The notes under the pieces were generated by a model. That model did not search any database, had not been told where the DNA came from, and was given only the letters and a program-made list of their open reading frames with translations. A stretch of DNA of 50,261 bases. Source: Spiroplasma poulsonii (GTDB lineage: Bacteria; Bacillota_I; Bacilli_A; Mycoplasmatales; Mycoplasmataceae). The first letter of the stretch is position 1. Each line of letters starts with the position of its first letter. Shown piece by piece: positions 5,281 to 43,617 of this stretch. The stretch spans positions 1,888,351 to 1,938,611 of the forward strand of contig NZ_CM020866.1 in the NCBI RefSeq assembly GCF_009866525.1. The letters are read 5' to 3'. The translations under genes and the position numbers were made by a program.

Positions 5281-5307
5281 AAGAAAAAGAAATGTAAAAT
5301 CTCTTTT

Positions 5308-5829: not shown

Positions 5830-5848
5830 TTGATTATTTCCTCTTTTA

Positions 5849-6853
5849 TTATCAATTAAGTGAGTATATTGAAACCGTATAATTAACATTTATATTTCCC
5901 GTATAAGTATTTGTATCAAAAGAATTGATAATTGCATTGTTATTACTAATATTTTCAACGTTAATTTTTGTGATATCTAAATTGCTATACATTTCTTTTA
6001 GTTTATTTTTAATTTGTTGTTTTGTTGGATTAGATAAATTTTCAGTTTTAAATTCACCTAAATTATTATTTGTAATAATTTTATTTAAATTAACATTAGA
6101 TATAAAAGTAACGACTACTTTACCACTTAAAATATCTTTTCTTTTAAAATTTATTTTTGCATTTGCTGTTGTTATATCACTAACTTCAAAATCATTTATA
6201 CTATTTTCTAAATTTTTATTTAATTCTTTTAATTTATTTTTAATTTCTTGTTCTGTTGGTTTATTAACACCATTAATTCTAATTAATCCTAATTCAGTGT
6301 TTTTAAAAACTGATTTTACTGGGTTACTATAATTAACATTTATTTCACCAGTATAAATACTTGTATCATTTGTTTTAACTTTGGCACTATTTAAACTAAT
6401 ATTTGTAATATTAATTTTTGAAATATCTAATTTAGGATTAAAAAGTTTTAAGGATTCTTGAACAATTTGGTTTGGTGTTCATCCACCAATTGAAAAATCT
6501 ATTTCTCCCAAATTAGTATTTGTAATAACTTTGTTTATTGGTACAGATTTATTAACTGTAAAATTAATTGTTTTTTTACCACTAAAACCATCTATAGCGA
6601 TTACGGCACTATTTTCAGTAATTTCTGTAACATTAATTTTATTAATATTTAATTTGGGATTTAATTCCACTACTTTTTCTTTGATTTGTTGTTCTGTTGG
6701 TTTATCAGCTCCATTAGTTTTAAAAATATGATTTTGTGTTTCTCTTTTACCTCTTATAGTTTGTTCTTTTTGATAAGGACTAGCGGCAATTGTTGTTGGT
6801 ACAGCACTTCCACTAATTGTTAATAAGCTTAATAAACTTAGTAATTTTTTCAT
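5849..6853 (-). CDS. Secreted/surface protein with four ~80-aa repeats (ARP-like)
   Basis: 334 residues. The start MKKLLSLLSLLTISG at 6853 follows AAGGAG by ten bases; the longer ATG at 6877 has no ribosome site. The signal peptide ends at about IAAS without a lipobox Cys, so the protein should be secreted or N-terminally released. Four repeats follow, each with a core like KPTEQEIKNKLKELNPKL ... INVxxIT ... Y-T-G-xI-x-V-N-Y. The signal peptide resembles those I remember from spiroplasma adhesion-related proteins. No C-terminal anchor is visible. It is antisense to the phage late genes, fitting a lysogenic-conversion cargo gene. Its promoter contains a TA repeat. Confidence 0.7.
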
Positions 6854-6888
6854 ACTTGTATTTCTCCTTCTTATCAATTTCTATTGAC

Positions 6889-6921
6889 ATTATATATATA
6901 TATATATATATATACAAGCAA
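6889..6921 (-). promoter_or_regulatory. Promoter of the ARP-like gene with (TA)n in the spacer
   Basis: On the minus strand TTGCTT (6916-6921) and TATAAT (6889-6894) frame a spacer of 21 bases made almost wholly of TA repeats. The optimum is about 17, so loss of two TA units would make a strong promoter. Assignment of the -35 box is inference. Confidence 0.5.
6891..6914. repeat. (TA)12 dinucleotide microsatellite
   Basis: Twelve uninterrupted TA units about 40 bases upstream of the ARP-like start codon. Such tracts change length by slipped-strand mispairing. Confidence 0.9.
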
Positions 6922-7032
6922 AATTATGAATTATTTTAAAAATTTTATCTTGAAAAATAGTTCTTATTACACGTTTTAAGGTTTAAATTAGCAACAAAAT
7001 ACATTAAGTTTAGTATTTGTTTATAAAAAGTA

Positions 7033-7060
7033 TTGTATTTATAAACTATGGGTGTATAAT
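7033..7060 (+). promoter_or_regulatory. Promoter for scaffold-capsid genes
   Basis: TTGTAT (7033-7038), 16-base spacer, TATAAT (7055-7060), about 88 bases upstream of the scaffold ATG. It would restart late transcription after the antisense cargo genes. The leader has a short perfect hairpin, CTTGTT-AATCG-AACAAG (7107-7123). Confidence 0.6.
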
Positions 7061-7147
7061 TAAATTATGAGTTTAATCTTTTTCCATAAAAAAGAGTTTA
7101 TGCTGACTTGTTAATCGAACAAGGATAAAAAAAGAGGAGTTTATAAA

Positions 7148-7609
7148 ATGGCGCTTACAAAAGAACAATTAATAGAACAAGGTTTAAGTGAAGAAATTGC
7201 AGAAAATATCTTAAATCAGTTTAATAATGAAGCCAAACAAATTAGAGAAAGTGTGCAAAAACGCGAAGATGTTATATCAAAAGAAGACTTTATTAAATTA
7301 TCTAATGAATTAGATGAATTAAAAGCATTTAAAGATATTCCATCAACTAAAATTGAAGATATTAAAACTAATTTAGATAAAGTTAGTGGTAATTCTTTAA
7401 GTGAAAGAATGCAAACTTTAAAAGAATTAAAACCTGATTTGTTTGTTGAAGAACAACAATCAATTTCACCAACTAATTTTATTAAAGATATGATTGAAAA
7501 TTCAGTTGAAAATAAAAATGATGAAATTGAAATTATTAAAGAAAAAGGAGCATATACTCCTGATGAAATTAAAAAATTAACTGATTATACACTTAAAAAC
7601 CTTAGATAA
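7148..7609 (+). CDS. Probable phage capsid scaffold protein
   Basis: 153 residues, highly charged and almost entirely helical (Glu, Lys, Asp, Asn rich), behind AGAGGAG. It has no membrane segment or enzyme motif. The small size, helical composition and place directly before the capsid gene match scaffolding proteins that guide procapsid assembly and then leave. The C-terminal basic tail (TLKNLR) fits the capsid-binding end seen in other scaffolds. Identification is by position and character rather than sequence family. Confidence 0.6.
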   Translation: MALTKEQLIEQGLSEEIAENILNQFNNEAKQIRESVQKREDVISKEDFIKLSNELDELKAFKDIPSTKIEDIKTNLDKVSGNSLSERMQTLKELKPDLFVEEQQSISPTNFIKDMIENSVENKNDEIEIIKEKGAYTPDEIKKLTDYTLKNLR

Positions 7610-7624
7610 TAAGGGAGTGAAATT

Positions 7625-9025
7625 ATGGCAACAATTAATTTGCCACAAGTACCTTTTACATTGGAAGGTAATACAACAGACCAAAAAGCGTATGTTGATA
7701 TGGTTAATGCTTTATTGCGTGGACCTTTATATAATGAATATGCAAGTATTATGCAATATGCAACTGCAACTGCTGAACAAGTTGCTTGATTATCTAATGC
7801 GGGACAAGCATTATATAATTTAACTCATCGTGTGGTATGACAAAATGATTATTCATTACCAAATGGTGGAGCAACTCAAACAATGGGATTAACAAGAATT
7901 CCAGTTCCTATTGATAAGAGATTTAATTTAAAATTAATGAATGAGGCTTTTGACTTGGCATTAATAGAACAAAATATTAAAAACGGTGTTATTGCTGATG
8001 CTATTTCTAGTGTTGTACAGAATAAATTTGTTAATTTAGAATGTGAATTAATTCAGGCTATTTATGATTATTGTTTAGCAGATGGTCAATATGAAGTAAT
8101 TCCATTTCGTAGTTATACAGCAGAAAATGCTGATGATGCAAATAAGGCATTCTTTACATTAAATGAAACTTTGATTGAATTAACAAATCAAATTAGTAAT
8201 TTATATTTTGGATTGCCAACTGATAAAATGTTTATGGTTTTAGGACGAAGAGCCTATTTAGGATTAACACCTGCTTATTTAAAAGTAATTGGTTCACAAG
8301 CTCAATTAAAAGCAATGGTTAATGGTGAATTATATGAAAATACTGCAATGGGAATTCCAGTATCAAAAAGTTTTCATTTAGAAAAAACATATACAAAAGG
8401 ACAAGTTAACCGTGATAAAGGTTATAATTTTACTAATGTAAATGGTTTAATTATTAATAAACAAGTATGAGCTTATCCAATTAATATGGATACTATTCAA
8501 CAAGTTTTAGATAATGATACTGCTAACCCTAAATGAATTGGTAAAGTACAATATGCAACACCAACTATTTTATATCCTAAAACATGTAAAATTATTTTAG
8601 AAAGACAACCAACAGAAGCAGAAATTAAACAAGCATATGATAACGTAAACAAAACATTTAGAGTACCAGTGGATTATATTATTAATCAACCAAAAAATAA
8701 TCAAACTACACCACCAATACCAAATATTTCTAAAATAGATATTAGTAAAATTAATAAATTAGATGACACAATCGTTAATTTGCCAGACCCCAAAGATGTT
8801 AGTGCTGGATGATTAAAACCTAAATTGCAAGATGTTGTTTTAAAAGCGGTAAAAGCAGTAAATAGTTCTTTAACTGAAAGTGATTTTGATTATTCTATTA
8901 CACCAAAAGGTAGTGACTGACCAATAGATATTACAAATGATAAAATTGTTGAAGTTGTAATTGAAGGTAAAAATAATGCTGTAGGTAAAACAAAAATCAT
9001 TGAAGCATTAATTAAAAACTCTTAA
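7625..9025 (+). CDS. Major capsid protein with spiralin-like C-terminal domain
   Basis: 466 residues, starting 15 bases after the scaffold stop behind a GGGAGTG site. Residues 1 to ~365 look like an all-in-one capsid protein (TLEGNTTDQKAYVDMVNALL near the start; VLGRRAYLGLTP and GIPVSKSFHLEK near residues 200-255). A linker rich in Pro, Gln, Asn and Thr follows. Residues ~380-466 form a separate module: PDPKDVSAGWLKPKLQ, DVVLKAVKAV, ESDFDY, IVEVVIEGKNNAVGKTKI. From memory this parallels the repeated domain of spiralin, the main spiroplasma surface lipoprotein (ANVLKAVQGV, AADFQF, then VxVxI and VG-T). It would be displayed on the capsid exterior. The capsid role is inferred from order, size and the preceding scaffold. 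Confidence 0.75.
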
Positions 9026-9031
9026 TAAAAA

Positions 9032-9949
9032 ATGAATTTATTAATATTACGAATTTTAACATTATTAGCAGAGAATTTAGGTAATAAAACAGTAGTAAAT
9101 AAGTTTGTTAATTTAATTAATAAAGTTAATAAATTTGCTTCATATTATGCAAATCCTTTACAAAAGATTACAAGTAAGATTGAAGATATTTATAAATGAT
9201 TAGATCCATTTACTTATTTAGATTTAATTAAAAAAGGTCATAAAAAAGAAATACAACAAATATTAAGTCAATTAGAAAAAGATAATAATATTAAAAATAG
9301 AGAACAATTTAAAAATGAAAATTATCTAAATACTAATTGACAGCCTTTAAATAGTAGTTGACTTAATAGTGGTATGTTTAATATTACAAATAAATTAACA
9401 TTAACAGGTAATTTAACTATTTTAATATATACAAAAACAGCAAAACATCCGAAATTTTATGGTCCATATGTTTATCCTAGTGTTCCAGTTGAAATTTGAA
9501 AATTATTAAGTAATGCTGTATCTAATGCTGGAACATTGTTTTGGCGTTATTGATTAAGAAAATGATTACCTAGTCATTTAAGAAATTATATTAAAAAACG
9601 ATTGCCAAAAGCATTAAAAGAAAAATATTCCAAAGGAAATACTAAATTAACATTACCAACAGTTCAAAAATTACAACAAATTAAAAAGTTTATTAATAAT
9701 TTAAAAATTGGACATTTTAATTTTAATTTTGCTGGTGAAATTAATAATAAAAAATGGTATCGTGAACGCTGAAGTGATGTTAAAAATATTAAGAATTTAT
9801 ATAAAACACCAGTTAAAAATATGTTTTACAAAACTAATCAAACTATTAAAAAAATTAAGAAAACACAAAAAAATATTAATAGTTATAAGCCACGTAATTT
9901 AAAAAATAAATATCGTAATCAATTAAGGGGTGTTTTATATGGAAAATAA
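9032..9949 (+). CDS. Phage protein with KTSC-like domain
   Basis: 305 residues in the late operon; its stop overlaps the next start by 11 bases, implying translational coupling. The middle (about residues 128-175) has the order of a KTSC domain: a beta pair (LTLTGNLTILIYTKT), then YGPYVYPSVPVEIWKLL, SNAVSNAGTLFWRYWL. In KTSC proteins this is Y-x-Y-x-x-VP-x-x-V-x-x-x-L followed by A-x-S-x-G-x-x-F. The C-terminus is very basic, suggesting nucleic-acid contact. The role in the virion is unknown; a minor head protein or head-completion factor is possible. Confidence 0.55.
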
Positions 9950-10907
9950 TTTAAGTAATTTGTTATTTATAACAGTTGAAGATGTTAAAGCAAGTAAACT
10001 TTGACAACCTATTAATGATAGAAAACAATCTGCTTATAATGATAATTTAATTTATAATGCTATTTTAAAAACTAGTTTATGAATGGATAGATTATCAGGT
10101 GGAACAATTTCCGATAAAATAAATAAAAAAGATTTATTTCCCTGAGTAAAAAAAGATAATACTGGTTTAATTGAATATGATAAATGATTAAGTTATATTC
10201 AATCTGCTTGCTTATTAGCAGTTATAAATTGATATTTACCAAAAGGAGTTAATGATTTAACTGGTAGTGCTTCATTTTCACAAGGTGGTGTAGCATATTC
10301 ACAAACTAATGACCCAGAAGCAAATGAGAATATTACTCGTGATGTTAAAAATGCTTTAAAATTAGCAGGTGAAATAATTGATATTATATCTAGTAAAACA
10401 GTATCTAGACCTTATAATTATAGTTTAGATAATTATGCTCATCCATGAGAAGAAGAATATAAGCATATTAGTAAAAAAACTTTTTATCCAACATTATTAT
10501 TTTGATTAAAAGAACGATTACAAACAGATAATTCAATAAATATTACTTATCCTATTATTAATGATTTTAGTAAAATTGATTATAACGAATATATTAAGAT
10601 TAATATAAATGATTGAGAAGTTGTTGATACAAGTGATTTAGATAATACAAGGTATGATTATCAAATAAATAATTGAGATAAAGAAAATTATAAATATAAT
10701 ATTTGAATTAAAACAAGTAATCAAAATAATTATTATTTAGCAACATACAAAAATTTTATAGGAAAAATAACTATTGGGTCTGCCGAATTAGAAAGTCCTG
10801 TTTCTCATCGTGTAGAATTGGAAGATGACGGAATTATTTCTATATATACTGGTAAATTTGATGGAACAATTTCTTATTTACACATTGAAAGAAGAAAAGA
10901 TAGTTAG
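9939..10907 (+). CDS. Probable head-tail connector or adaptor protein
   Basis: 322 residues, starting inside the end of the preceding gene. The N-terminal half is helical (FITVEDVKASKLWQPINDRK, LWMDRLSGGTI, SYIQSACLLAVINWYLPKG), the pattern of small helical adaptors that bind under the portal. The C-terminal half is beta-rich and ends TISYLHIERRKDS, like a small jelly-roll or attachment domain. No enzyme motif and no signal. Late-operon position supports a structural role. The family is not recognised with certainty. Confidence 0.5.
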
Positions 10908-10922
10908 AAAGGATTTTAATTA

Positions 10923-11528
10923 ATGAAACAAGATAAAACAACTTGATTAAAGGGTGCATTACCTTGAAATTGGTTTAAAAAAGACCCTATTCCAACTTAT
11001 AATTGAACGCATAAAGATATTAGAGAATGAGAAAGAAAATATAAAATTCGTAGTTGAGTAGTTAGTTTTTATACCCTGATATTTTTAGTATTAAATTGTT
11101 GATTAGAATATGGAATGATTAATGCAATTAAAGATAATATTAATTGATATAATTATGGTCAATATTGAGGTAATGGCATTGCAATATTATTAACACCATT
11201 ATTTACACATGGAATTCAAGGTATATTTGTTGTTAGTAGTAAACCAAAAATAGATATGAAAATTGATATACCACGATTAAAAGTTTCTAAACTGGGATTA
11301 GTATTTACAATATTGCCTTTAATTACTTTAATAATTTCTTTAATTATTATTTGAATTGATAAATCAAAATGAAAAAAAGACCATTTAAGACATTGTTTAG
11401 ATTGTCGGATTAATCCGCGTGTTATCCAACCAAGAGTAGCAAAACAATGAAATAATTTAGATGGCATAACAGAAGAAAAATTAAAAAATATACAAAATGA
11501 AAATAACAAAGAATTAAATTTAAAATAG
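10923..11528 (+). CDS. Phage-encoded membrane protein, 201 aa
   Basis: Starts at ATG 10923 behind AAAGGAT. Basic, Trp-rich N-terminus (residues 1-40), a hydrophobic helix (about 41-62), a second segment (ILLTPLFTHGIQGIFVV, ~80-97), a third long one (LVFTILPLITLIISLIIIWI, ~117-136), and a basic cytoplasmic tail with CLDC (Cys-X2-Cys) and a terminal acidic region. In a wall-less host no endolysin is needed; such membrane proteins may serve exit, entry or superinfection exclusion. Function unknown. Confidence 0.65.
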
Positions 11529-11647
11529 ACTATATATAGGGGCGGTTGATATTTTTGGGTGGTTATATAGTTTAATTTATAAATTATTTTGTTCTGAAAG
11601 GATAGATGGCCACTGTTTGAGTAAGAATAAGAAAGGAATTAAAGAAA

Positions 11648-11935
11648 ATGAACGAAACATTAATGATTGCTTTACTTGTATTAGCAGGTGCTGGTGGAAT
11701 GGGTAGTCTTGGTATTCTAGGATTATCTGCTAAAAAAATTAAAAAATATAAAGCAGAAATTAGAGAATTAAGAACTGCTGTTATTGCTCACGAAAAGCAT
11801 TTAAGAGGACCTGATTATGCAACAGAATTAGCATTAAAAACAGGTCAAATTAAAAATGTTAAAAAACAAGTTAAAGTAAATGATAAAAAGCAAGCACAAA
11901 AAGATGCTATTAAAAAATTAACAAATAGTATTTAA
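11648..11935 (+). CDS. Small phage membrane protein, 95 aa, holin-like or minor coat-like
   Basis: One N-terminal membrane helix (LMIALLVLAGAGGMGSLGIL) followed by a long, strongly basic helix (KKIKKYKAEIRELRTAVIAH, later KNVKKQVKVNDKKQAQKDA). The ribosome site is AAAGGAATT. This shape suits a holin-like protein or a small virion/membrane anchor. It is the last gene of the rightward operon, followed by a terminator. A 119-base spacer (11529-11647) before it holds only weak short repeats. Confidence 0.6.
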   Translation: MNETLMIALLVLAGAGGMGSLGILGLSAKKIKKYKAEIRELRTAVIAHEKHLRGPDYATELALKTGQIKNVKKQVKVNDKKQAQKDAIKKLTNSI

Positions 11936-11936
11936 A

Positions 11937-11962
11937 AAAATAACCTTAATTGGTTATTTTTT
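11937..11962. terminator. Bidirectional terminator between late and early phage operons
   Basis: AAATAACC-TTAATT-GGTTATTTTT, right after the 95-aa gene and overlapping the end of the leftward operon. It is placed to stop both converging transcripts. Confidence 0.7.
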
Positions 11963-12163
11963 ATTTTCTAATATTAAGTATAAATTTTTAACTTTACAAA
12001 TAACTAAATTATTTTCTCCATAATTATTTTTATAATATTCTCAGTATTCAGTTGAATTAATATCTACATCTTGTTTATCAATCCCAATTATATATTCACC
12101 ACGAGGGTTTTTACAAGGGCGATTACCTTGTTCAGAGCGATAACATAAAATATAATTATTCAT
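11954..12163 (-). CDS. Small phage protein, 69 aa, unknown
   Basis: Last gene of the leftward early operon. It reads MNNYILCYRSEQGNRPCKNP... with Cys at 7 and 17 and one TGA Trp, ending LENKK at a TAA inside the terminator. The ATG lies inside the end of the upstream gene (overlap of 8 bases), so it is translationally coupled. No family recognised; the two Cys and basic character leave a small metal-binding protein possible. Confidence 0.55.
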
Positions 12164-12344
12164 ATTCTTTATTTCCTTTATCATGTGTTATATAAAAGTT
12201 AATAAGATATTCTATTTTTTGAGAATAAGTACTAAAATTTAATTCATTTCAAACTTTTTCTTCGTTTTTATTTAAGTAAATATTAACATTCCTAATTTTG
12301 CAAGAATAATATTTTCCAGTTTTTTGATTATATGAATGTTTCAT
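12156..12344 (-). CDS. Small phage protein, 62 aa, unknown
   Basis: Reads MKHSYNQKTGKYYSCKIRNV...KGNKEYE. I chose the ATG at 12344, which follows a GAGAG site; an in-frame ATG at 12359 has no ribosome site. The start is five bases after the stop of the RuvC-like gene. Mixed charge, no membrane segment. Its size suggests a ribbon-helix-helix regulator, but no motif proves it. Confidence 0.5.
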
Positions 12345-12348
12345 AATA

Positions 12349-12846
12349 TTAACTCTCATAATTAGCAATAATAATGGCATCTCGTAAATGATTACTTATT
12401 TTTTCATTCTTATATTTTCAACCTTTACCATATTCATAAGTTAAATTAGTATCTTTTTCATATTTTCATACAGAACTATCATTATATTTACTTAAATTTT
12501 CCATATTTTTAACAACTGATTTAGTATGGCGTGGTGATACTCAATTATAACTAACTCAAGTATTTTCAATCGCACCCAGTAATCTTAATAAATCATCTCT
12601 ATCTTTACTAGCATTAGCAGATGTATATAAACAATCTTCAATATTTAATCCTTTTGGAAAAAGTTCACCTTTATTTTTTACATAATAATCTGAATATAAA
12701 TATTCATCTATAAATTCATCAATAAATTTATAATGTTCTTTTCAATATTTACTAGTAAATTCATTTTGTTTAATTAATTTATTATCTTCATATATAACAA
12801 TAGCAGTAGTACCAGTTCCTGATGGGTCAATACCTATTTTTATCAT
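12349..12846 (-). CDS. RuvC-like Holliday junction resolvase
   Basis: 165 residues with an RNase H-like start MIKIGIDPSGTGTTAIVIYE (catalytic Asp7 in the first beta strand), a middle acidic region (FPKGLNIEDCLY) and the RuvC-type end SNHLRDAIIIANYE, whose H-x-x-D-A carries late catalytic residues. It would cut branched DNA made during phage recombination or before packaging. Its ATG overlaps the stop of the ERF gene by one base (TAATG), showing tight coupling. Confidence 0.8.
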
Positions 12847-13520
12847 TATCTTAAAAATCTTTCTTTAAATTGATAATAAAAATCTTCGCTTTGCTTTCTA
12901 ATTATAACTGGTGATAATTTTTCAACATTTAATTCTTCTTTTATTCAATTTTTACCTTTTGAAATAATATCTTGTTCTATTTTTGTATTTGTAATAAAAT
13001 CTTTAATATTATTAAAATGCTCTTCCCTCATTCAATTTGGATTTAAATTATTAATTTGTTGCTTATTAGTTTCTTTAATAACTTGATTACTATTTTCTTT
13101 ACTTATTTCAGTACTATCGGGGTCTAATTCATCAGTTGCTATACCAAATGTCTTACACAATCAATAACGAGCACCATAAGTTAAAGCACTACCAACTGCT
13201 TTTGCAATATCTGAATTTTGTGCTGATAAAATAATTCCTAATTCTAATTTTTCATCATTTTTATAAAGTGTTAATAAACCTTTTGAATAATAATTTACCA
13301 TTTTATCATTATTAATAAATGTTGGTTCACCAACTGCTTGAATTGTATAAGTTATATGATGCTCTTTTAATTGTGGTTTTAAAGTTTGATATAAATCACT
13401 TTCAGTAAAATAATTATATTTATTAAAATCATTCCTTGCATTTTTACCAACAAAAATATTTATATTAGATTGAATTTCACCAATACTTGCTATTAATGTT
13501 TTTTTAGTTTCTTGTTGCAT
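12846..13520 (-). CDS. ERF-family single-strand annealing recombinase
   Basis: 224 residues. The N-terminal ~130 residues match the ERF pattern: KNARNDFNKYNYFTESDLYQ, TLKPQLKEHHITYT, and the hallmark VGSALTYGARYWLCKTFGI followed by acidic TDELDPD. ERF proteins form rings and anneal complementary single strands. The C-terminal ~90 residues are charged linker and a basic tail. It sits beside SSB, a nuclease and a resolvase, a complete phage annealing module. The start ATG at 13520 overlaps the upstream gene and has GAGAGGAA upstream. Confidence 0.85.
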
Positions 13521-14163
13521 TTTCTCATTCCTCTCTTTCTTGTCATATTAAAATGGCATCTTTAATTTTTTCTAAATCTTGTTTAGTAATATTAACTTTT
13601 TCTTTAATTACTATTTTTAATTTTGGATTTATAATTATCATTAATATTTTTTTACTATCTATACAAAAATCTTTTTCTAATAAATAATAAAGTTTTAATT
13701 GTCAAATATAGCGTTTAATATCAGTTTCTTCATTAGAACTAGTAATTTTTCAATCACATATTATATATTCATTATCAATAGTTATTCCAATAAAATCAGT
13801 TGTACCACACATTAAAGGGTTATAAAGTGTTTTTTCAGTTTCATAATGTTTAAATTTAATATCTTTAAAAGTTTCTTGATATAATTTTGTAAAATTATTA
13901 AAAATATCTTTGTGTGATTTTATATCACAATTAATAAACTCAATTAATTCATCATCAAAATTATTTTTTATTCAACAATCAATCATATTATGTAAACATA
14001 TTCCACGAGTTTGTGCTAATTTTAAAATATTCTCATCAATTTGCGAATAATCTTTTGGCACTAAAATATTAACAATTTGACTAACACTAGGGATTAAAAT
14101 ACTATATTTATGTAATTCATTATTATAAATATATAATGGTTTAATCTCACATGATGGCATCAT
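13504..14163 (-). CDS. PD-(D/E)XK nuclease, RecB/Cas4-like
   Basis: 219 residues. The core motifs are visible: GTTDFIGITIDNEYIICDWKI gives the first Asp and the D-W-K of motif D-(x)n-(D/E)-x-K, and QLKLYYL gives the Q-x-x-x-Y helix typical of RecB-like nucleases. It probably makes the single-stranded ends used by the neighbouring ERF protein. The end overlaps the ERF start by 17 bases and the start lies within the end of ssb. I prefer ATG 14163, with GGGTGA just upstream, over GTG 14169. Confidence 0.75.
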
Positions 14164-14563
14164 TATCACCCATTAAATCTTTAATATCTTCTGAACTATA
14201 ATTTATTTGTTCTTCTGCAATTATTTCTGGTGTTTTTTTAGATAATAATATATCTCTTTTTAAATCATTATTTGTATGTAAAAATTCATAATTAGAAACT
14301 TGTACTATTCATTCAGTTTTATTATCTTTATTTTTAAAAGATTGTAAAACACCAGTAACTGCTATTTGACTACCTTTTTGACAATATTTTTGTAAAACAG
14401 TTGCTTGTTTATTTCAAACTTGACAAGATATAAAATCAGTTTCTTTTTGAGTAGAATAAGGTCTTATTACTGCTAATTGAAATATGGTATATTCTTTACC
14501 ATTTTGTGTTTTTTTAATTTCAATATCTTTAGTTGTTCTACCAATTCCAATAAATTTATTCAT
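14141..14563 (-). CDS. ssb: Phage single-stranded DNA-binding protein
   Basis: 140 residues with one OB fold: MNKFIGIGRTTKDIE (strand 1), TIFQLAVIRPY, ETDFISCQVWNKQA, QKGSQIAVTGVLQS, WIVQVSNYEFL. The tail is acidic and ends DNDAIMWD, differing from the usual DDDLPF tip, so partner binding may be phage-specific. It would coat single strands during phage replication and recombination. The end overlaps the downstream nuclease start, and AGAGGAAA precedes the ATG. Confidence 0.85.
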
Positions 14564-20651: not shown

Positions 20652-22265
20652 TTATCTTGTTTTTGGATAAACATAATCTGATGGTTTAAAAGCAATTCCA
20701 TAGATATTTACAGGTCATGGCGTATAATAAATATTATTAGTTGTTGCATTAACTCCAAAATTAAAACGCAAACTATAATTTCTATTTGCATAAATACTTA
20801 ATGACCGATCGCTTCCGATTACAGGCACCAAATCAACAACTTCTGTTGTCACTCAAAATTTATCAATATCTGGTAAAATTTGATTTTGTGGATCAGTTTT
20901 AAATTTATTTAACAGCATTTTTCAAATTTTACGGTGTGACAAACCATCAGTTTTAACTTGTTTTTCTAGACCATTTCAATAATCAACATCTAAAAACAAA
21001 GCACCTTCTTTTCAAACCTTAATATCTCAAGTAATTTTATAATATTTATAAAAGGCACTAATAATTCGACCAAAATTTTTAATTTTTTCAATCATTCCAT
21101 CACGCGTAATCCCAACACTTAAATAAAATGGTTTACCCTCATTTAAAATAACACCCGACAATGGGATTCCAGCTACTAAAATTTTTGCCAAGTTAATTCT
21201 AAACTGACCCAACTGTAATTTTGCATCAGATGTACTTGTTAAAATACTTAATTTTTTGCCATAATATTCTAAAAAGTTTTCTGGTGTTAATTTATCAGGA
21301 GCATAACCAGTATTAACCCACGTATATGTTTCATCATCAGGAATAACGGGGGTAACACCATTTGTATCTGGATTAATACTTGAATTTAATAAAACCAAAA
21401 TTTGTTCATCCTTAGCATAAGTAATACTATTTCGAATTTCACCAAGTTCATTGTCAGCATTTAATGCTGCATCTAATTCTTTTTGGACAATTACATCTAA
21501 CATGCTGTGATCAAAGGCATAATTTAAATCAAAATTTTCATAAATACTCCGAAAAGCTGGATTTTCATCCACAATAATATTTTCTGCCATTGAATTAAAA
21601 AATTTTACAATTGCTTTTGAGACGGTTCCTGTCACAGCCGTCAAAATTTCTTCCATTTTTACTTTATCATTTGTAACTGTATATTGTATTAAAAATGGAA
21701 CACGTGTTTCTAATGTTTTAAATTGGATTTTAACTTCTAATTTAAAATTCAACCGAACTCCTTGCAAATTGTTAACATCAACATTTGCTAATGATCTTAA
21801 CTGTTCAGTGTCAATGTGGTTTAACATAAACTGATAACCTTTTACATCAGCACTTAACGGTAATGTATTAAGATAATAATTTGAATATTGGTCAGCAATT
21901 TCACGATTAACATTATCAAAAATAGTCAGAAAACCATTTATTAATGCGTTTAACCCTGAACCAACATTTTCATCATTTAAATTCAATTATCGCTGTGATT
22001 GTTTCTTACTGACCATTGTAAATAATTTTTCAAGACCATTAGTTGGATAATCGTTAATATCAACTAATGCTTTTTCCATCGCATATTTTTGAAACGCAGC
22101 GCTAACTTTTTTGGTAATTTCATTTAAAATTTTTAAATCACCTTGATAATCAATACCATTATTTTCTTCTTTATCAGTATTTGGTTTTGCAACACAACTA
22201 ATAATCAAACCCGGACTAACAACACTAAAATTAAAAACCCCTAGCATTACTAATAATTTTTTCAT
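20652..22265 (-). pseudogene. Large lipoprotein, copy 1, broken by a nonsense codon
   Basis: Starts MKKLLVMLGVFNFSVVSPGL with lipobox IISC (ATG 22265 after TAGGAAA) and would encode 537 residues of exported lipoprotein. Codon 93 is TAA where the second copy has CAA (SQR-stop-LNLND), so translation ends after 92 residues; the rest remains open to 20652. The exported part alternates helical and beta segments (YQGDLKILNEITKKVSAAFQ; NFGRIISAFYKYYKITW). No known family beyond spiroplasma lipoprotein. The 3' end is complete here, unlike copy 2. Confidence 0.8.
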
Positions 22266-22404
22266 TTTTTGTTTTTTCCTACCATGAGTTTTTTCATCGG
22301 ATATGAAGTGATTATACAAAAAAAGACAAGGAGTATAATTATTCAAATCAAGTTATTATCAACCATTAATATAATTAGAACCTTGATAATCATCTTAAAT
22401 AAAA

Positions 22405-24649: not shown

Positions 24650-26383
24650 TTAAACATTTAAAGCACTTTTTGTTGTTTTTTGTACTAAAGCTAATACTTC
24701 TTCAGCGGTTTGACAAGTTAGAGCTTTTGCCACTAATTGTTCCATCGCTGGAACTTCTAATTTGCTAATAACTTGACGGGCATTTAAAATACTTGTTGCT
24801 GACATTGAAAAGTAATCTAACTTCATTCCCATTAAAAGGGGAATTGCTTGTTCTTCTCCCGCCATCTCACCACACATTCCAACTCATTTGCCTTCTTTAT
24901 GAGCTCCATCAATAATTGTTTTGATTAAACGTAAAATTGATGGATTATATGGTTGATATAAATAAGCAACAAATTGACTCATCCGATCAGCTGCCATTGT
25001 GTATTGAATTAAATCGTTTGTTCCGATTGAAAAGAAATCAGCATGTTTTGCAAACTGGTCCGCCAACATAGCTGCTGATGGAATTTCCATCATCATTCCA
25101 ATTTCAATATTATCCGCAACTTGATGTCCGGCTTTAATTAGATTTGCTTTTTCTTCTAATGTAATTTCTTTTGCTGCTTTAAATTCATCAATTGTAGCAA
25201 TCATTGGGAACATAATACCAAGTTTCCCGTGGACACTCGCGCGTAATAAAGCTCGTAATTGTGTTCGAAACACATCCGTTTTATCTAAACATAATCGAAT
25301 CGCACGATAACCTAAAAATGGATTCATTTCTTCTGGGAATTTAAAATATGATAGTTTTTTATCTCCTACAATATCCAACGTACGAATAATTACTGGTCGG
25401 TTTTGCATTCCTTATAACACGCCTTTATATGCTTTATATTGTTCATCTTCCGTTGGAAAATGATCATTATCCATATATAAGAACTCACTTCTAAAGAGTC
25501 CAATTCCTTGGCCACCATTATCTAACACCCCTTGAACATCTTTTGGGGCCCCAATGTTACCTTCTAAAACAAATTTTTGGTATCCATCTTTTGATACGGT
25601 GGGTTTATCTTTAAATGCTAATAATTCTTGTTGCAATTGGAAAAACTTTGTTCGTTCTGCGGTTCAAGTTTTAATCTCGTCAGCTGATGGGGCTAAAATA
25701 ACCTCCCCAGTTGTTCCATTAATCATCATCGCTTCATTATGTTTTGCCTGTTTTGTAACATCTTTTAGACCTAACATTGCCGGAATTTCTAAACTACGAG
25801 CCATAATAGCAGCATGGCTAGTTCTTCCCCCCATATCACAACTAAATCCTTTTGCAAATTTAGGGTCCAATTGCGCTGTTTGTGATGGTGTTAAATCTTC
25901 TGCGACAATAATAACTTCTTCATTAATTGTTGCTAAATCTAACACCGGCACATTTAAAATATATTTAATTAACCGATCAGTTACATCTTTGATATCCGCT
26001 GCTCTTTCCTTAAAGTATGGATCCTCCATTCCAGCAAATATTGTAATAAATTTCTGTGCAACAGTATGAATTGCATACGCCGCATTGTTTTTATCATTAT
26101 TAATCATTTTTTTTGCTTCATCAATCATCGCTGGATCCTGTAAAATCTGACTATGGGCTTCGAAGATCGCCGCTTTCTCAGCTCCCAATTTTTCTAAGGC
26201 AATTTCTTGTAATTTTTCAATATCAGCATTTGCCTTCTTCATTGCTGTTTCTAAACTCTTAATTTCACTAGCTGAATCAGAAACCGTATTATTTGAAATC
26301 TCATATTTTGGTTCTTCTAATTTAAAAACTTTTGCAATTGCAATTCCATTACTCGCACCTATTCCGTGCAGTTTTTTTGACAT
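24650..26383 (-). pseudogene. ptsI: PTS enzyme I (ptsI) with in-frame TAA at codon 324
   Basis: The full frame would give 577 residues, normal for enzyme I, which takes phosphate from PEP to HPr. The phosphohistidine loop GGRTSHAAIMARSLEIPAM places the active His near residue 190, and the PEP-binding barrel is complete ([37 protein letters not shown]). At 25412-25414 the sequence reads GVL-TAA-GMQNRP, where the family has an acidic residue before G-M, so GAA to TAA is the simplest change. All PTS sugar uptake would depend on this gene, so a sequence error, suppression, a second copy elsewhere or true loss must be separated. The start follows GAGGAAT. Confidence 0.85.
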
Positions 26384-26660: not shown

Positions 26661-27729
26661 GACTTCTTGCATTACTTACTTGTTAAAAAATTGCAAATAT
26701 TTGTAAAAAAGATACTAATAGAAAAATATAATTTTAATTAATTATGTTTTTTATTTAAAAATTTAATATTTTTCCACAACGAAAAATTAATTTATTATTT
26801 AAATTATTTAATTTTAAATAAATATTTTATGTTAAATATAATAATTGTAAATTATAAATTGAGGCAATTAAATTAAATCTTAAACCAAATCTTTTTCTTC
26901 GATTACGATATTTTTCTGTAATAATTTTAAATTTTTTAAGAATAGCAAAAATATTTTCAATAATAATTCTCATTTTTGAAACTAGTCTATTATATTGCTT
27001 TTGTTCTTTGTTTAAAGGGTTTTTCTTTGTTTTCTTTGTAGGTATTAGAACATTATTGTGATTTTTTTGTATTCCTTGATAACCACTATCAACTATTAAT
27101 TTGGTATTTTTTAAAATTGGGATTTTTGATTCTTTAAATAAAGCATAATCATGTTTTTTTCCGGGCGAAAAACTTGTTGCAATAATTTTTTTGGTTTCTT
27201 GTTCGATAATTACTTGTGTTTTGATCGTGTGTTTTTTCTTTTTACCAGAATAAGATTGTTTTTGTCTTTTTTTGGGCATTGGATTGGAGTTTCGGTAGCA
27301 TCAATAATAATAGTTTTATCATTAAAATAATCATTTATTAGTGCTTTTTTACCAGCAAGTTGTTGAAAATCAGAGTTTTTAATTAAAATATCTTCAATTC
27401 ACTTAATATTACGATAACAATTAGCCTCACTAATATCAAAACTTTTACCAAGATGAAAATAAGTCTGATATTCTCGTCAATATAATAAAGTAATCAATAA
27501 TCTATTTTCTAATGATAATTTATTAGTTTTACCACCTTTTTTAAATTTTTCTATTTCAGCAACTTTTAAAATATCTAACATTTTATTAAAAGTGGATTTT
27601 TTTATTCCTATTAATCTTAACCATTCTCTATCATTAAGAGTATTAAATTTATTATTGTTCATATTTTTATGTCCTCATAAATTATATTTTATAATAATAT
27701 TTTAATAAAAAAGGGTATCGCAAGAAGTC
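26661..27729 (-). mobile_element. IS5-family element, copy B
   Basis: 1069 bp: same ends as copy A with a four-base tandem addition (ATTACTTACTTG) near its left end. TA lies at both junctions. It separates the ptsI upstream region from the second lipoprotein block, whose large lipoprotein it truncates. Confidence 0.92.
26827..27662 (-). CDS. IS5-family transposase (copy B)
   Basis: orfA from ATG 27662 to TAA at 27210; orfB ends at 26827, joined by the same A7 slippery run. A G-to-A change just before the run turns CGCCC into TGCCC and creates an ATG (27277-27279) opening the orfB frame as MPKKRQKQ. Catalytic Asp, Asp and Glu are all present. Confidence 0.87.
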
Positions 27730-29265
27730 TATTATTGGTTGTTGCATTAACCCCAAAATTAAAGCGCAAACTATACTTTCTATTTGCATAAACGCTTAAT
27801 GACCGATCCTTCCCAATAACAGAAACCAAATCAACGATTTCTGTTGTTACTCAAAACTTATCAATATCTGGTAAATTTTGATTTTGTGGATCAGTTTTAA
27901 ATTTATTTAACAGCGTTCTTCAAATTTTACGATGTGATAAACGTTCATTTTTGACGTGTTTTTCTAAACCATTTCAATAATCAACATCTAAAAACAAGGC
28001 ACCTTCTTTTCAAACTTTAATATCCCAAGTAATTTTGTAATATTGATAAAAAGTACTAATAATTCGACCAAAATTTTTAATTTTTTCAATCATTCCATCA
28101 CGCGTAATCCCGACACTTAAATAAAAGGGGTTACCCTCATTTAAAATAACACCCGACAATGGGATCCCAGCAACTAAAATTTTTGCCAAGTTAATTCTAA
28201 ACTGCCCTAATTGCAATTTTGAGCTAGATGTTCTTGTTAAAATATTCAATTTTTCGCCATAATATTCTAAAAAGTTTTCTGGTGTTAATTTATCAGGAGC
28301 ATAACCAGTATTAACCCACGTATATGTTTCATCATCAGGAATAACGGGGGTAACACCATTTGTATCTGGATTAATACTTGAATTTAATAAAACCAAAATT
28401 TGTTCATCCTTAGCATAAGTAATACTATTTCGAATTTCACCAAGTTCATTGTCAGCACATATAATGCTGCATCTAATTCTTTTTGGACAATTACATCTAA
28501 CATGCTGTGATCAAAGGCATAATTTAAATCAAAATTTTCATAAATACTCCGAAAAGCTGGATTTTCATCCACAATAATATTTTCTGCCATTGAATTAAAA
28601 AATTTTACAATTGCTTTTGAAACGGTTCCTGTCACAGCCGTCAAAATTTCTTCCATTTTTACTTTATCATTTGTAACTGTATATTGTACTAAAAATGGAA
28701 CACGTGTTTCTAATGTTTTAAATTGGATTTTAACTTCTAATTTAAAATCCAACCGAACTCCTTGCAAATTGTTAACATCAACATTTGCTAATGATCTTAA
28801 CTGTTCAGTGTCAATGTGGTTTAACATAAACTGATAACCTTTTACATCAGCACTTAACGGTAATGTATTAATATAATAATTTGAATATTGGTCAGCAATT
28901 TCACGATTAACATTATCAAAAATAGTCAGAAAACCATTTATTAATGCGTTTAACCCTGAACCAACATTTTCATCATTTAAATTCAATTGTCGCTGTGATT
29001 GTTTCTTACTGACCATTGTAAATAATTTTTCAAGACCATTAGTTGGATAATCGTTAATATCAACTAATGCTTTTTCCATCGCATATTTTTGAAACGCAGC
29101 GCTAACTTTTTTGGTAATTTCATTTAAAATTTTTAAATCACCTTGATAATCAATACCATTATTTTCTTCTTGATCAGTATTTGGTTTTGCAACACAACTA
29201 ATAATCAAACCCGGACTAACAACACTAAAATTAAAAACCCCTAGCATTACTAATAATTTTTTTAT
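27730..29265 (-). pseudogene. Large lipoprotein, copy 2, broken in three ways
   Basis: Homologous to copy 1 but the start codon is ATA (29263-29265) after GGGAGGAAAAAACAAAAA, a two-base insertion near 28456-28462 shifts the frame after ELDAAL, and the last ~26 codons are replaced by IS5 copy B. Codon 93 is the sense codon CAA that is TAA in copy 1. An in-frame ATG at 29346 could add 27 residues before the signal. No intact version of this lipoprotein remains in the window. Confidence 0.85.
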
Positions 29266-29454
29266 TTTTTGTTTTTTCCTCCCATGAGTTTTTTCATCGG
29301 ATATGAAGTGATTATACAAAAAAAGACAAGGAATATAATTATTCAAATCAAGTTATTATCAACCATTAATATAATTAGAACCTTGATAACCATCTTAAAT
29401 AAAAAAAATGACATTATTGATAGTTAATGTCATTTTTAATAAATATTTAATTTT

Positions 29455-33510: not shown

Positions 33511-33539
33511 TTGCAAATTGTCTTATTAAGTTTTATAAT
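33511..33539 (+). promoter_or_regulatory. Promoter of the HxlR-like regulator
   Basis: TTGCAA (33511-33516), exact 17-base spacer, TATAAT (33534-33539). A dyad AATATA-CTATAA-TATATT overlaps the start of transcription and could be the regulator's own operator. Confidence 0.7.
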
Positions 33540-33571
33540 ATACTATAATATATTGTAAAGAGTGGTGAATT

Positions 33572-33952
33572 ATGATGAAACAATGTGCGATTAATGATGA
33601 AATTTGCTGTGGAAATGACTGTCGTTGTGAGAGTAGCTGTTGTGATCACAATGTGGCAACGATTAAAAGTTTTGTTAAAATTATTTCACAAAAATGGTTT
33701 TTAAAAATAATTAATGTTTTAAATGAACAAGAATGTGGTTTTAATGAATTACATCACCATTTAAAAGAATGCACTAGAAAAGTGTTAACAGAAACCCTTA
33801 ATAATTTAATTAAAAGAAATATTGTTGAGAAAAAGGTCTATCTTAAAAATAATGTGACATATTCTTCATATCGGTTAACAGATATTGGTTTTGAATTAGT
33901 ACGAATGCTTTACCAAATTAAACGATTTAGTTGTGCTTATTTAGTTGATTAA
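33572..33952 (+). CDS. HxlR-family winged-helix regulator with Cys-rich N-terminus
   Basis: 126 residues. Residues ~30-115 follow the HxlR fold: IISQKWFLKIINVLNEQECG, FNELHHHLKECTRKVLTETL, NNLIKRNIVEKKVYLKNNVT, YSSYRLTDIGFELVRML. Residues 1-27 hold seven Cys (5, 12, 13, 17, 19, 23, 24) plus His26, with CC and CxC pairs, replacing the usual single conserved Cys. This suggests metal binding or redox/electrophile sensing. It stands 78 bases upstream of a giant FtsX-type permease on the same strand, a likely target. Start ATG 33572; the next codon is also ATG. Confidence 0.85.
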   Translation: MMKQCAINDEICCGNDCRCESSCCDHNVATIKSFVKIISQKWFLKIINVLNEQECGFNELHHHLKECTRKVLTETLNNLIKRNIVEKKVYLKNNVTYSSYRLTDIGFELVRMLYQIKRFSCAYLVD

Positions 33953-34030
33953 AGATTTGGAATATTTTTTAAAAATATTTTATTTTTCTTATATAATAAA
34001 TTTAATATATATTTGAAATGGGTGGAACAT

Positions 34031-37000
34031 ATGTTAAATCTTGCAAAAGAGGCTACGCGGGGATTTACAAAAAAAATAACGCAATTTATTGGGTTGATTT
34101 TGTTTATCATTGGAGCAGTATTAACCTTTACAGCACTTTTTTCGACTGTTTTTCAAGTTAAAAATGGATTAAATGATGTTAAAAGAAATAGTATCTCGTA
34201 TCATTATGAAATTGGGATGGATAGTTTGAATATTGATAATAATGTTTATAAGAGAAATCCGGATTGAAAAATTAATGGAAATAATCGTGCTTTTTTAGCA
34301 CAATTTTATTATGACACTAAAATTGATACTAATCGGTTAACTTTTAATAATATTAAGGCAGATGTTTTAGGTTTAAATTGTGATTTAACAAATAATCAAA
34401 TTTGTACATGATCAAAAGAACCATCATATTTAAATAAACAAACAGGGACAGCATCTTTTACTGCGTTAGTTAAGAATTTTAATGGTAATCTTCCTTCGGC
34501 ATTTTTAAGTTATATTATTCATCATCCCGATAAAAGCCAGTTAAAAGCTTTAATTGATAATGATAATGTTACTTTAGATCTTAGTTATGATGTTAGTTAT
34601 CAGTTTGTTGTTAATAATTTAGCTAAAGACACCCAATATTTTAATGCTGTTGCTGTTAATAAAGATAAAAATTTATTATTTAATGGTGATGGGTGACGAG
34701 GAAATGATATTTTTTATACTCCATTTAATCGTGTTTATGATGTAACAATTGGTGGGGCCGTTACTGAGATAGCAAAAAACAATATTATTTTAAGTAAGCA
34801 ATATGCAGACTATAATTCGTTAAATGTTGGTGGAAATTTTAATTTAGGAAATAATTCAAATTTACAATTTAAGATTGCAGGTTATGGTGCTAAGTATAGT
34901 AATATTTATCCTAGTTTAGCAAGCTTATCAACAGTTGCTAGTGGTAGTAAAATAATTGATTTAAGGAATGGTTCATTATTATTTATGAATGACATAAATT
35001 ATAATACGATTAAACAAAACTTTTCTAATGGTGAAGAAAAGTTTACTTGCTTTATTAATGTTAATGGCGACTTAACTGATCCTCAAAAAGTTGCATTGTT
35101 GCGCAAGGTTTTAGGTAATTATTTTGTTGCTCCAGATAATGCGATTGTTGTTTTTGAATCATCATTACCAGGCCAAGTGGTAATGTTAACAAATACTGGT
35201 TTTATTATTAATACCTCAATTGCGGTTGCCTGTTCAATTATTATTTTAATTATTATTGCCTTTTTTATTAAAAAGGATATTACTTATCAAAAACGCCAAA
35301 TTGGGGTTTTAAAGTCCTTAGGATATCGACGTTGGGAATTATCTTTTGTTTTTATTTTTAATATTGTCTTTACAACGCTAATTGGTTGTTTATTAGGGTG
35401 GGTTATGAGTTTACCATTACAAATGTATTTTACTTCTTCAAACTTATATTCAGTTGGTCTACCATTGTCACTCTTTTATTTTAATCCAGTTATTTTTATT
35501 ACCGCAACAATTATTATTCCCCTTATCTTTGTTGCGATGGCGTTTTTAATTTCATTTGTTCTTTTAAGCAGAACAGCTTTAGATTTAATTTATGATTTAA
35601 AAGGGTCAAATTTAAATTTCCGTGCTAAAAGAGTAAGAAAAGGAAGAAAATATGTCCACTTTGGATTATCCTTTAATATTCATTTATCATTTACCTTTGC
35701 TTTAAAATCATTCGGAAAATGAGTAATGGTATTAGTTGTTTTAGCTTTTTCATCCTTCTTATTAATTTTCCAATTAGATGCTGGTGTTATGGCCCAAGGC
35801 ATTGTTGGTGATTCTTTCCGATATTTTAAAGATGATATAAAATCGTATTTAATTGCATCTTCTGATCAACAAGATATTGCCCAAGAAGCAAACAATAGTA
35901 AACCTTATAATTGAATTACAACCAATGAACGTGATCAATATTATTATCGAGCACAAGTCTTAGAGGGTGATAAAACTTTTAATTTTCCAGATCCATTAAT
36001 GTGTTTCTTAAAATTATCAAGTCCTAATTCCGCTAGGGCACAACAAAGTTGTGGTGATTTACTAAATATTATTGGTGATCCAAGTGGGCCAAATCTTGTT
36101 GAAAGTAAGATTAAATATGATGCTAAGACTAACAAATATCCTTATTTAAATTCTGAAACAGTTAAGGCAATTGTTAACTATAAAGTTAAAGATAATAAAA
36201 CTGGGGAATGAATTAATGGATGAGATCGGTTAATTGAAATAATAAATATTATAAAACCAAGTTTAATTAGTCAAGGTCTATCCGAAGCAGATATTCAAAC
36301 TATTATTACTGGAATTAATATGATTAATAGTTTGGGTTCATCAACTAATGGTCAGTACCCTGATATTTACTTAGGACCATATATGGTGTATGATTTAGCT
36401 TATGATTTCCCGTATGTCTTTCTAACGGCCGGTTGAAGTCCAGATGATGTAAAAAATGCTAAAAATCCTGTTTCACAATTAAATGTTGTTGGTTTATCAA
36501 GTGATGAAACACAACGAAATCAATTGTTGAACTATCGCTCTCAAAATACGCCAGTTGATGTTGCCCAAAAAGAAGTTTTTGGTTATAAAATTAGTGACAA
36601 CCCAGTAAATTATGATTTAAATATGACAATTAATGAACCAATCCCAGTTATTTTAGCAAAACGAGTTTATCAATCAATGGATATTAATCCGGGAGATATT
36701 TTTAAATTAAATGTCCGAATCACAAATGCGATTGGCTATGTTCCGGTTGCTTTTAAAGTGGTTAGTTCAGATGATGCCGATATTAGTTCGGGGAATATTT
36801 ATATGAATCAAGATTCGTTAGTTACTGTTATGAACCAATGAGTTAATGTGACAAGGAAGGGAATCGTGTTCCCACTTGGTTCATATTATAATGTTGTTGC
36901 TTCTCGTGCCAGTCCGAGCGGAATGGCTTTACAACCTTATCGTATTATGTCCTCGTTTTCATTAACAGATAATTATGATTTTACAATGTTTGATAATAAT

Positions 37001-37519
37001 AAAAAGATTGATTTTACTAATGCACTGGATTTAAGAACAAATTTAAAATTATTAAATGGGTTGCATAAGATTTGACCGTTTGATACATTACGAGAAAATT
37101 ATTCGCAAGGAATGCGAACCGTCCGTGATGTTCTTAATGTATTAGAGGGACTAACGATTGTTATTGTTGCTTTAATTCTAGCTGTTTTAATTTCAATGGT
37201 GCTTGATGAAAACCGACGAACAATATTGACCTTAAAAGTGCTTGGATATCCAACATGAAAAATTATTTCAATTGTGCTAGGATTTTATTTATTAGCTATC
37301 ATTATTGGTTATATCTTAAGTTACGTGATTGCACAGTTATTATGGAGTTTAATTGCTAATGTTGTCTTTAAAAGCACCGGAATATTGTTAATACCTTCCT
37401 TTTCTGCTTATGTTGTTTCAATTGCAACAGCAGCAATTGGAATAATTCTATTATTAGTTATTACGGTTGGAATTTGAAAAATTAAGAAAAATAAACTAAC
37501 AAATATTACATCAGAGTAA
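34031..37519 (+). CDS. Giant FtsX/MacB-type ABC permease, 1162 aa
   Basis: A single open frame using many TGA Trp codons. Layout: membrane helix (~13-36), exported domain (~37-390), FtsX core with four helices (~390-525; KRQIGVLKSLGYRRWELSF is the typical coupling loop), helix near 565, second exported domain (~590-1035), second FtsX core (~1040-1150; DENRRTILTLKVLGYPTWK). Such permeases move lipids, lipoproteins or peptides with a separate ATPase; none is adjacent here. I chose ATG 34031 with GGTGGA five bases upstream; TTG 34013 is less likely. A TATAAT box lies near 33992. Probably controlled by the HxlR neighbour. Confidence 0.85.
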
Positions 37520-41441: not shown

Positions 41442-42488
41442 ATGGCTTTATTTAATAATAGCACAAAGAAACCAGCTTTCGTTTCTATGGACTTAGGAAC
41501 TGCTAATACATTGGTGTATGTTTCGGGTTCAGGAATCATTTATAACGAGCCTTCAATTGTTGCTTACAGAATTAAAGAAAACAGAATTATTGCTGTAGGT
41601 GCAGAAGCTTACAAAATGATTGGAAAAGGAAACAAGTCAGTTCGTATTGTTAGACCAATGGTTGATGGAGTTATTACCGATATTCGTGCAACAGAAGCAC
41701 AATTAAGATATATTTTTACAAAACTACGTATTACAAAACAATTAAAACATTCAATTATGTTATTGGCTTGTCCATCAGTTATTACTGAATTAGAAAAAGC
41801 TGCCTTGAAAAAAATTGCAATGAACTTAGGAGCATCTAAAGTTTTCGTTGAAGAAGAAGTTAAAATGGCTGCTTTAGGTGGAGGTGTTGATATTTACAAA
41901 CCTGCTGGAAACTTAGTTGTTGACATGGGTGGAGGAACAACAGATATTGCTGTTATGGCCTCAGGAGACATCGTATTATCTAAATCAGTTAAAGTTGCTG
42001 GAAACTATTTAAACGATGAAGTACAAAAATTCATCCGTTCACAATATGGTCTAGAAATTGGATCAAAAACAGCTGAACAAATTAAAATTGAAATCGGATC
42101 ATTATCGAAATATCCTGATGAAAGAAGAATGAAAGTTTACGGACGTGATGTAGTTTCAGGATTACCAAGAGAAATCGAAGTAACACCAGAAGAAATCCGA
42201 GAAGTATTAAAAGTACCTGTGTCAAGAATTATTGACCTAACAGTACAAGTGTTAGAAGAAACACCGCCTGAATTAGCAGGAGACATTTTCCGTAATGGAA
42301 TTACAATCTGTGGGGGTGGAGCCTTAATTAAAGGAATTGATCGTTACTTTACAGATACATTACAGTTACCATCAAAAATCGGTGAACAACCATTATTAGC
42401 CGTTATTAATGGAACTAAAAAATTCGAATCAGACATCTTTGATATCTTAAGATTAGAATCAATGCATGTAAAAGAATTAAATTACTAA
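41442..42488 (+). CDS. mreB4: Actin-like cytoskeletal protein MreB (probably MreB4)
   Basis: 348 residues, start after AGGAGGAC. Nucleotide-binding motifs: FVSMDLGTANTLVYV (phosphate 1), VVDMGGGTTDIAVMASG (phosphate 2), EEEVKMAALGGG (catalytic Glu), ITICGGGALIKGIDRY (adenosine). Wall-less spiroplasmas carry about five MreB paralogs that, with fibril protein, form the inner ribbon giving helical shape and kinking motility. The assignment to paralog 4 rests on its pairing with the next gene and on memory. Ends VKELNY without a basic tail. 70 bases separate it from mreB5, probably one operon. Confidence 0.93.
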   Translation: MALFNNSTKKPAFVSMDLGTANTLVYVSGSGIIYNEPSIVAYRIKENRIIAVGAEAYKMIGKGNKSVRIVRPMVDGVITDIRATEAQLRYIFTKLRITKQLKHSIMLLACPSVITELEKAALKKIAMNLGASKVFVEEEVKMAALGGGVDIYKPAGNLVVDMGGGTTDIAVMASGDIVLSKSVKVAGNYLNDEVQKFIRSQYGLEIGSKTAEQIKIEIGSLSKYPDERRMKVYGRDVVSGLPREIEVTPEEIREVLKVPVSRIIDLTVQVLEETPPELAGDIFRNGITICGGGALIKGIDRYFTDTLQLPSKIGEQPLLAVINGTKKFESDIFDILRLESMHVKELNY

Positions 42489-42558
42489 AATAGGCTATTA
42501 ATAAGTTATTATTAATATAACTATGAATAGTTATTAAATTGTTAAGGAGGACAAAAAC

Positions 42559-43617
42559 GTGAGACCAGAAACTAGACCATTTATTTCTCTTGACTTAGGA
42601 ACTGCTAATGTTTTAGCGTATGTTTCAGGACAAGGTGTAGTCTACAATGAACCATCATTAATGGCTTATAACAATAAAACTAATAGTTTAATTGCCTTAG
42701 GAAAAGCTGCCTATGATATGGTTGGAAAAACACACGGGGATATTAGAATGGTAACACCATTAGTAGATGGAGTTATCGCAGATATGGAAGCTGCACAAGA
42801 TTTATTAAAACACATCTTTTCAAGAATGAAAATGATGAACATTTGAAAAAATGCTATTGTATTATTAGCATGTCCAAGTGGAGTTACAGAACTTGAAAGA
42901 GAAGCTTTAAAAAATGTTGCTAAAGAAATGGGTGCTGAATTAGTTATTATCGAAGAGGAAGCTAAAATGGCCGCTTTAGGAGCAGGAATTAATATTGAAT
43001 TACCTCAAGGACACTTAATCATTGATATTGGTGGGGGAACAACTGACTTAGCTATTATTTCATCAGGTGATATCGTAGTTTCAAGATCAATTAAAGTTGC
43101 TGGAAGCCACTTTGACGATGATATTCGTAAATACATTCGTTCAGAATACAACATTGCTATTGGGCAAAAAACAGCTGAAGATGTTAAAAAATTCATTGGT
43201 TCATTAGTTAAATACCATAACGAAAGATCAATGCAAATCTATGGACGTGATATTGTTTCAGGATTACCAAAAGAAGCAAAAATTAGTTCAGAAGAAATCA
43301 GAAATGTCTTATTAAATGCATTTTCTAAAATTACAGACTTAGTAATTGAACTATTAGAAAATACACCACCTGAATTAGCAGGAGACATTATGAGAAATGG
43401 AATTACAGTTTGTGGTGGAGGAGCATTAATTAGAAATATTGATAAATACTTCTTTGATATCTTCCAATTACCAACAAAAACTGCTTCAGATCCATTAAAT
43501 TGTGTTATTGAAGGAACAAAAATCTTCGAAAAAACAATTAAGAAAAATATCGAAAATGGTTTGTATAATTTCCAAGAAAAAGGATTATTATCATCATTAG
43601 GTAAAAAAAGAAAATAA
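42559..43617 (+). CDS. mreB5: Actin-like cytoskeletal protein MreB5
   Basis: 352 residues from a GTG start behind AAGGAGGAC; a TGA Trp at codon 97 (MNIWKNA) splits it under the standard code. Motifs FISLDLGTANVLAYV, LIIDIGGGTTDLAIISSG, ITVCGGGALIRNIDKY. The catalytic Glu is residue 134 (IIEEEAKMAALGAG), matching the position I remember for S. citri MreB5. That protein is required for the helical shape and binds membranes partly by a basic C-terminal tail; here the tail ends SSLGKKRK. The terminator follows at once. Confidence 0.95.

Follow-up and report, generated by a model that had tools for sequence, protein, structure and literature searches.

Metal-thiolate regulators such as yeast Ace1 and Mac1 and bacterial CopY carry short Cys-dense heads or tails, in which CxC pairs hold the metal. 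Among the winged-helix regulators, HypR, YodB and CatR have been described as sensing HOCl, quinones and diamide through a conserved N-terminal Cys (PMC6943732), and YodB as working through Cys6 and Cys101 (PMC8063818). In HxlR from Bacillus subtilis, modification of Cys11 is reported to break helix 1 and to move the DNA-binding helices (PMC7835342). Here we describe a regulator of this family from Spiroplasma poulsonii, encoded within a DNA stretch of 50,261 nucleotides (the window, whose features are listed in the table), which lacks the usual sensor Cys and carries instead seven Cys ahead of helix 1.

Features of the regulator-permease locus, in window coordinates
Feature	Position	Strand	Basis or remark
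Regulator promoter-like site, TTGCAA-17-TATAAT	33511..33539	+	hexamer search; close matches in G022 and G023
HxlR-type regulator gene	33572..33952	+	ORF calls and orthologs
Cys-head codons, residues 5-24, C-x6-CC-x3-CxC-x3-CC	33584..33643	+	7 Cys invariant in 5/5 orthologs
HxlR winged-helix domain, residues 37-123, including invariant C67 and C121	33680..33940	+	PF01638 and model body
Palindrome AATATTTT-N3-AAAATATT between regulator and permease	33961..33979	+	operator candidate or weak terminator
Permease promoter-like site, TTTAAA-18-TATAAT	33968..33997	+	hexamer search; overlaps palindrome
Giant FtsX-domain permease	34031..37519	+	PF02687, E 1.1e-21, 2 stretches

The regulator ORF codes for 126 amino acids, ends with a TAA stop and reads identically under translation tables 11 and 4; the initial annotation had found the gene (33572-33955) but carried it one codon beyond its true end at 33952. 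TGA is read as Trp in larger genes of this genome, the permease having 12 such codons. Membership of the HxlR family is firm, as Pfam PF01638 (HxlR) matches residues 37-123 with an E of 3.9e-12 and 46.3 bits against a cut-off of 20.8, and the modelled fold matches solved HxlR proteins, in agreement with the winged-helix identity first assigned. The structure model, built on a three-row alignment, has a mean pLDDT of 76.1, with most of the body above 90 and residues 1-26 below 50, so that it should inform on the body only, and it contains helices at residues 22-38, 41-52, 57-63, 69-81 and 104-123. Its best match in the PDB was YodB (5hs7; E 7.0e-07, TM 0.68 by query length), with 2fsw, HypR, QsrR and HxlR as the next solved folds among the top 20 matches. 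C67 lies in the model just ahead of helix 69-81 and C121 inside the last helix, positions that, by analogy with the family, would be close to the recognition helix and at the dimer face, respectively. The nearest NCBIfam models were RrpA (E 4.5e-05) and RrpB (E 2.5e-07), although the scores, 23.7 of 185 and 30.9 of 175 bits, are far under the cut-offs of both.

The first 26 residues contain C5, C12, C13, C17, C19, C23 and C24, followed by H26, so that the seven-Cys N-terminus proposed earlier is borne out, with an HxlR body behind it. By direct reading, the spacing CC-x3-C-x-C-x3-CC is mirror-symmetric. Cys accounts for 66 of the 8972 residues of 22 other window proteins, and chance was discarded as the origin of the cluster, the probability of at least seven Cys in 26 residues being 6.8e-10 on this background. 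The head had also been called metallothionein-like, a term that holds as a description only: no Pfam match covers it at E up to 1, and the head alone gave no match among solved-structure (PDB) sequences at E up to 10.

A full-length regulator is present in five of the 14 genomes of the genus, that of the window and four others, G022, G023, G016 and G019, whose proteins are 87, 85, 59 and 56% identical to the window protein. These orthologs form two identity groups (of three and two), so the independent trials of conservation are fewer than five; all of them share the seven head Cys, D25, C67 and C121, which answers in the affirmative whether the Cys are conserved in homologs. Between the window protein and its 59% identical G016 ortholog, all seven head Cys agree, compared with only six of the 24 other head residues (Fisher p 6.5e-4). 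The Cys are thus kept while the residues around them vary, as metal co-ordination would demand. The His that had been counted as part of the head did not fare as well, since residue 26 is H, H, H, E and E across the five orthologs, and H26 was rejected as a ligand common to all of them. The dN/dS values of the ten ortholog pairs, about 0.11-0.43, indicate that the gene is under purifying selection.

Several searches looked for the head in other bacteria. The DNA pattern for CCx3CxCx3CC occurs in 60 of 395 genomes of the class, many matches being repeats (GCT or GTT runs); frame reading covered three of the matches outside the genus, with frames of 17, 85 and 66 residues (the last under table 4; 53 under table 11), and none of the three is an HxlR protein. 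A profile of the five orthologs, run at E up to 1e-9 against 392 genomes of the phylum, recovered four orthologs (G019 was absent) and four other proteins, whose heads contain between 0 and 2 Cys and are thus not Cys-rich. HxlR matches were found in 21 of 119 genomes of the order. Reading of the protein starts covered four of the new matches (G541, G517, G526 and a partial one in G045), which have 1, 2, 2 and 1 Cys, respectively, and thus lack a Cys-rich head; those of G517 and G526 are partial matches, apparently to another kind of protein. A related-locus search of genome contigs returned only two HxlR genes, both from Hyphomonadaceae and 26% identical. Within the genomes searched here, the seven-Cys head thus appears to be confined to this genus. 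In the literature searches, no paper joined HxlR with Spiroplasma, or the HxlR family with cysteine-rich; HxlR with Mollicutes retrieved only a Porphyromonas paper, judged by its title, and the matches listed for Spiroplasma with metallothionein look to concern host or unrelated genes.

The proteins that have the cluster lack the thiol normally used as sensor. Counting 13 residues back from the helix-2 Trp, the five orthologs have Ala or Thr, and their nearest Cys lies five residues further upstream, so that the conserved Cys of the one-Cys MarR/DUF24 sensors (YodB, HypR, QsrR) is missing. In B. subtilis HxlR we take W24 to be this Trp, the residue that completes the register for Cys11. Together with the peptide 14-ELTLAVIGGK-23 given for that protein (PMC7835342), it puts Cys11 at the same place. 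In the taxonomic family, where 27 of 60 genomes have an HxlR match, the other 22 HxlR proteins all carry Cys there (as CP in 21 and CA in one), have no Cys-rich head and contain 1 to 3 Cys in the 40 residues preceding the helix-2 Trp, one protein of ambiguous start (L008) being counted with 3. This distribution implies that the cluster replaces the usual sensor thiol, and the conservation of the cluster suggests metal or reactive-chemical sensing by a route not described for the HxlR family.

The head could be a thiol sensor of redox state or electrophiles. Its Cys would then form disulfides or adducts as they do in YodB and HypR, pairing with one another, with C67 or with C121, and the additional thiols would allow graded responses or responses to several signals. 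The precedents given above and the invariance of C67 and C121 favour such a sensor, but the known members need only one or two thiols, the usual reactive position is gone, and seven strictly conserved Cys with two CC pairs exceed what a disulfide switch requires, so that we regard this explanation as rather unlikely. Seven conserved Cys would also suffice for one or two structural metal sites, of zinc for instance, shaping or joining the dimer while the signal comes from elsewhere, and the head is modelled, at low confidence, before helix 1. However, with the usual sensor Cys gone there is no other obvious candidate for the sensor, and the solved HxlR proteins are dimers not known to carry such a head, which makes a purely structural role quite improbable. 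Our tentative proposal, the most likely of the three although at somewhat below an even chance, is that a soft metal is bound by the head in a thiolate cluster and that helix 1 shifts as a result.

No metal gene adjoins the regulator, which counts against a metal-binding head. Upstream of it, a P-type ATPase gene adjoins directly in G022 and is separated by two or more genes in G016 and G019, the window and G023 having other genes there, mobile or unassigned; the G022 ATPase, the one tested, is nearest to calcium models (PMR1/SERCA), under their cut-offs. Heavy-metal P-type ATPases above the family cut-off occur in three of the five genomes with the regulator and in three of the nine without it, so a linkage between these ATPases and the regulator was rejected, and their distribution neither supports nor excludes a metal ligand.

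Downstream, the regulator is followed directly by the permease in all five genomes. The permease has 1168 residues and two FtsX stretches; its ATG at 34031 agrees with the ortholog starts, and its ORF also opens at a TTG at 34013. An ortholog is present in 12 of the 14 genomes of the genus; G014, G018, G025 and G026 have it intact although they lack the regulator, showing that the regulator is optional for the permease. In the regulator-less genomes G015 (L101), G017 (L098) and G020 (L102) the permease is broken. A tblastn search of the seven regulator-less permease regions gave no convincing remnant of the regulator, the best match (E 0.011) falling in a neighbouring gene.

The DNA around the two genes contains candidate sites of both transcription start and control. 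The promoter-like site of the regulator has counterparts in G022 (TTGTAA) and G023 (TTGCAA), with TATAAT in both, and is weak by itself, as the search gave 8 such sites against 7.1 in shuffled sequence. A dyad at 33534-33553, previously suggested as the operator, was rejected, since it starts at the -10 hexamer TATAAT and G022 and G023 lack its right half. The palindrome at 33961-33979 is a better operator candidate, although it may be a weak terminator. It is exact in the three close HxlR-bearing genomes (window, G022 and G023), although the whole stretch between regulator and permease is alike in these three and conservation of the arms proves little; it is absent from the regulator-permease gap of G016 and G019. 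Its right arm is altered in the four HxlR-less relatives aligned, two of which, G015 and G018, are near-identical there; three further genomes with the permease and no HxlR (G014, G017 and G026) were left out of the alignment, and the palindrome was not seen when their upstream stretches were read by eye. Exact copies number seven in the genome of the window, one in G022 (this site) and two in G023; in the window the exact palindrome is unique, and with one mismatch allowed two were found against 0.32 expected, a number reached by 4 of 100 shuffles. In the transcript it would fold into a hairpin (-4.3 to -4.7 kcal/mol) with a run of U behind it, which makes a weak terminator an equally good reading. 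The TATATAAT stretch of the permease promoter-like site is common to close genomes with and without HxlR.

The control of the adjacent permease, as first proposed, thus finds a mixed reception: adjacency in five of five genomes speaks for it, whereas the intact permeases of regulator-less genomes and the permease's own conserved promoter-like sequence speak against it. The regulator could act elsewhere or on itself only, next to a permease whose adjacency is inherited and non-functional, and the hairpin in the gap between the two genes, where a promoter-like site also lies, could end the regulator transcript. Nevertheless, the pair has stayed together despite rearrangement on the upstream side, and the palindrome within the permease promoter is altered in the aligned relatives that lack HxlR, so that we consider an unconnected target improbable and the permease a likely one.

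Taken together, the protein is best read as an HxlR repressor that acts on its own gene and on the permease and is switched through a metal-thiolate (or poly-thiol) head. The protein would be a dimeric winged-helix repressor, in which the seven-Cys head just ahead of helix 1 would serve as the sensor in place of a single thiol. The head may form a thiolate cluster around a soft metal such as Cu(I) or Zn(II); the filling or emptying of this cluster would move helix 1 at the dimer face, and DNA binding would change at putative operators in the regulator's own promoter and in that of the FtsX permease. It is possible, although less likely than not, that in the wall-less Spiroplasma-type bacteria a polynuclear metal-thiolate cluster has taken the place of the one reactive thiol of the family, and that an HxlR regulator has in this way become a soft-metal sensor.

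The rest of the window shows several other features. In a virus-like block (925-14563), genes for a single-strand binding protein (E 1.7e-25) and an Erf-like annealing protein (E 8.6e-26) accompany long ORFs; of ten proteins tested, seven are without a PHROGs match at E up to 0.01, and similar ORFs are present in G025. Two near-identical regions of a large lipoprotein-like gene (20652-22346 and 27689-29346, minus strand) are each broken into ORFs, and transposase-like ORFs are repeated around them (e.g. at 18713, 27210, 32478 and 40550). The gene at 24650-26383 (minus strand), presumably PTS enzyme I-like, is divided into two ORFs, an in-frame TAA interrupting it two codons ahead of the ATG of the second. 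At 41442-43617 (plus strand) lie two genes in tandem, presumably MreB-like.

If the head does hold a metal cluster, one of the commonest families of bacterial regulators would have a second mode of sensing, and the exchange would be visible within one clade, where seven Cys have been gained and the usual one lost. Few regulators are known from these bacteria, and this one would respond to a signal and be linked to a giant permease, a kind of protein of which they have many. Compared with Ace1, Mac1 and CopY, the head is likewise Cys-dense with a CxC pair, although fold and Cys spacing differ and no homology was found. RrpA and RrpB, redox regulators in NCBIfam, are the nearest models there, but the regulator is not a member of either. 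With the formaldehyde sensor HxlR of B. subtilis (Cys11-Lys13) it has the domain and the fold in common, whereas Cys11 and its Cys-Glu-Lys context are missing, the head is cluster-like and the neighbouring genes differ. Finally, YodB, HypR and QsrR, the thiol sensors of the MarR/DUF24 type, share its fold and sense at the N-terminus by helix 1, using one N-terminal Cys and a partner, where the Spiroplasma regulator has Ala or Thr at that position and a seven-Cys head before it.
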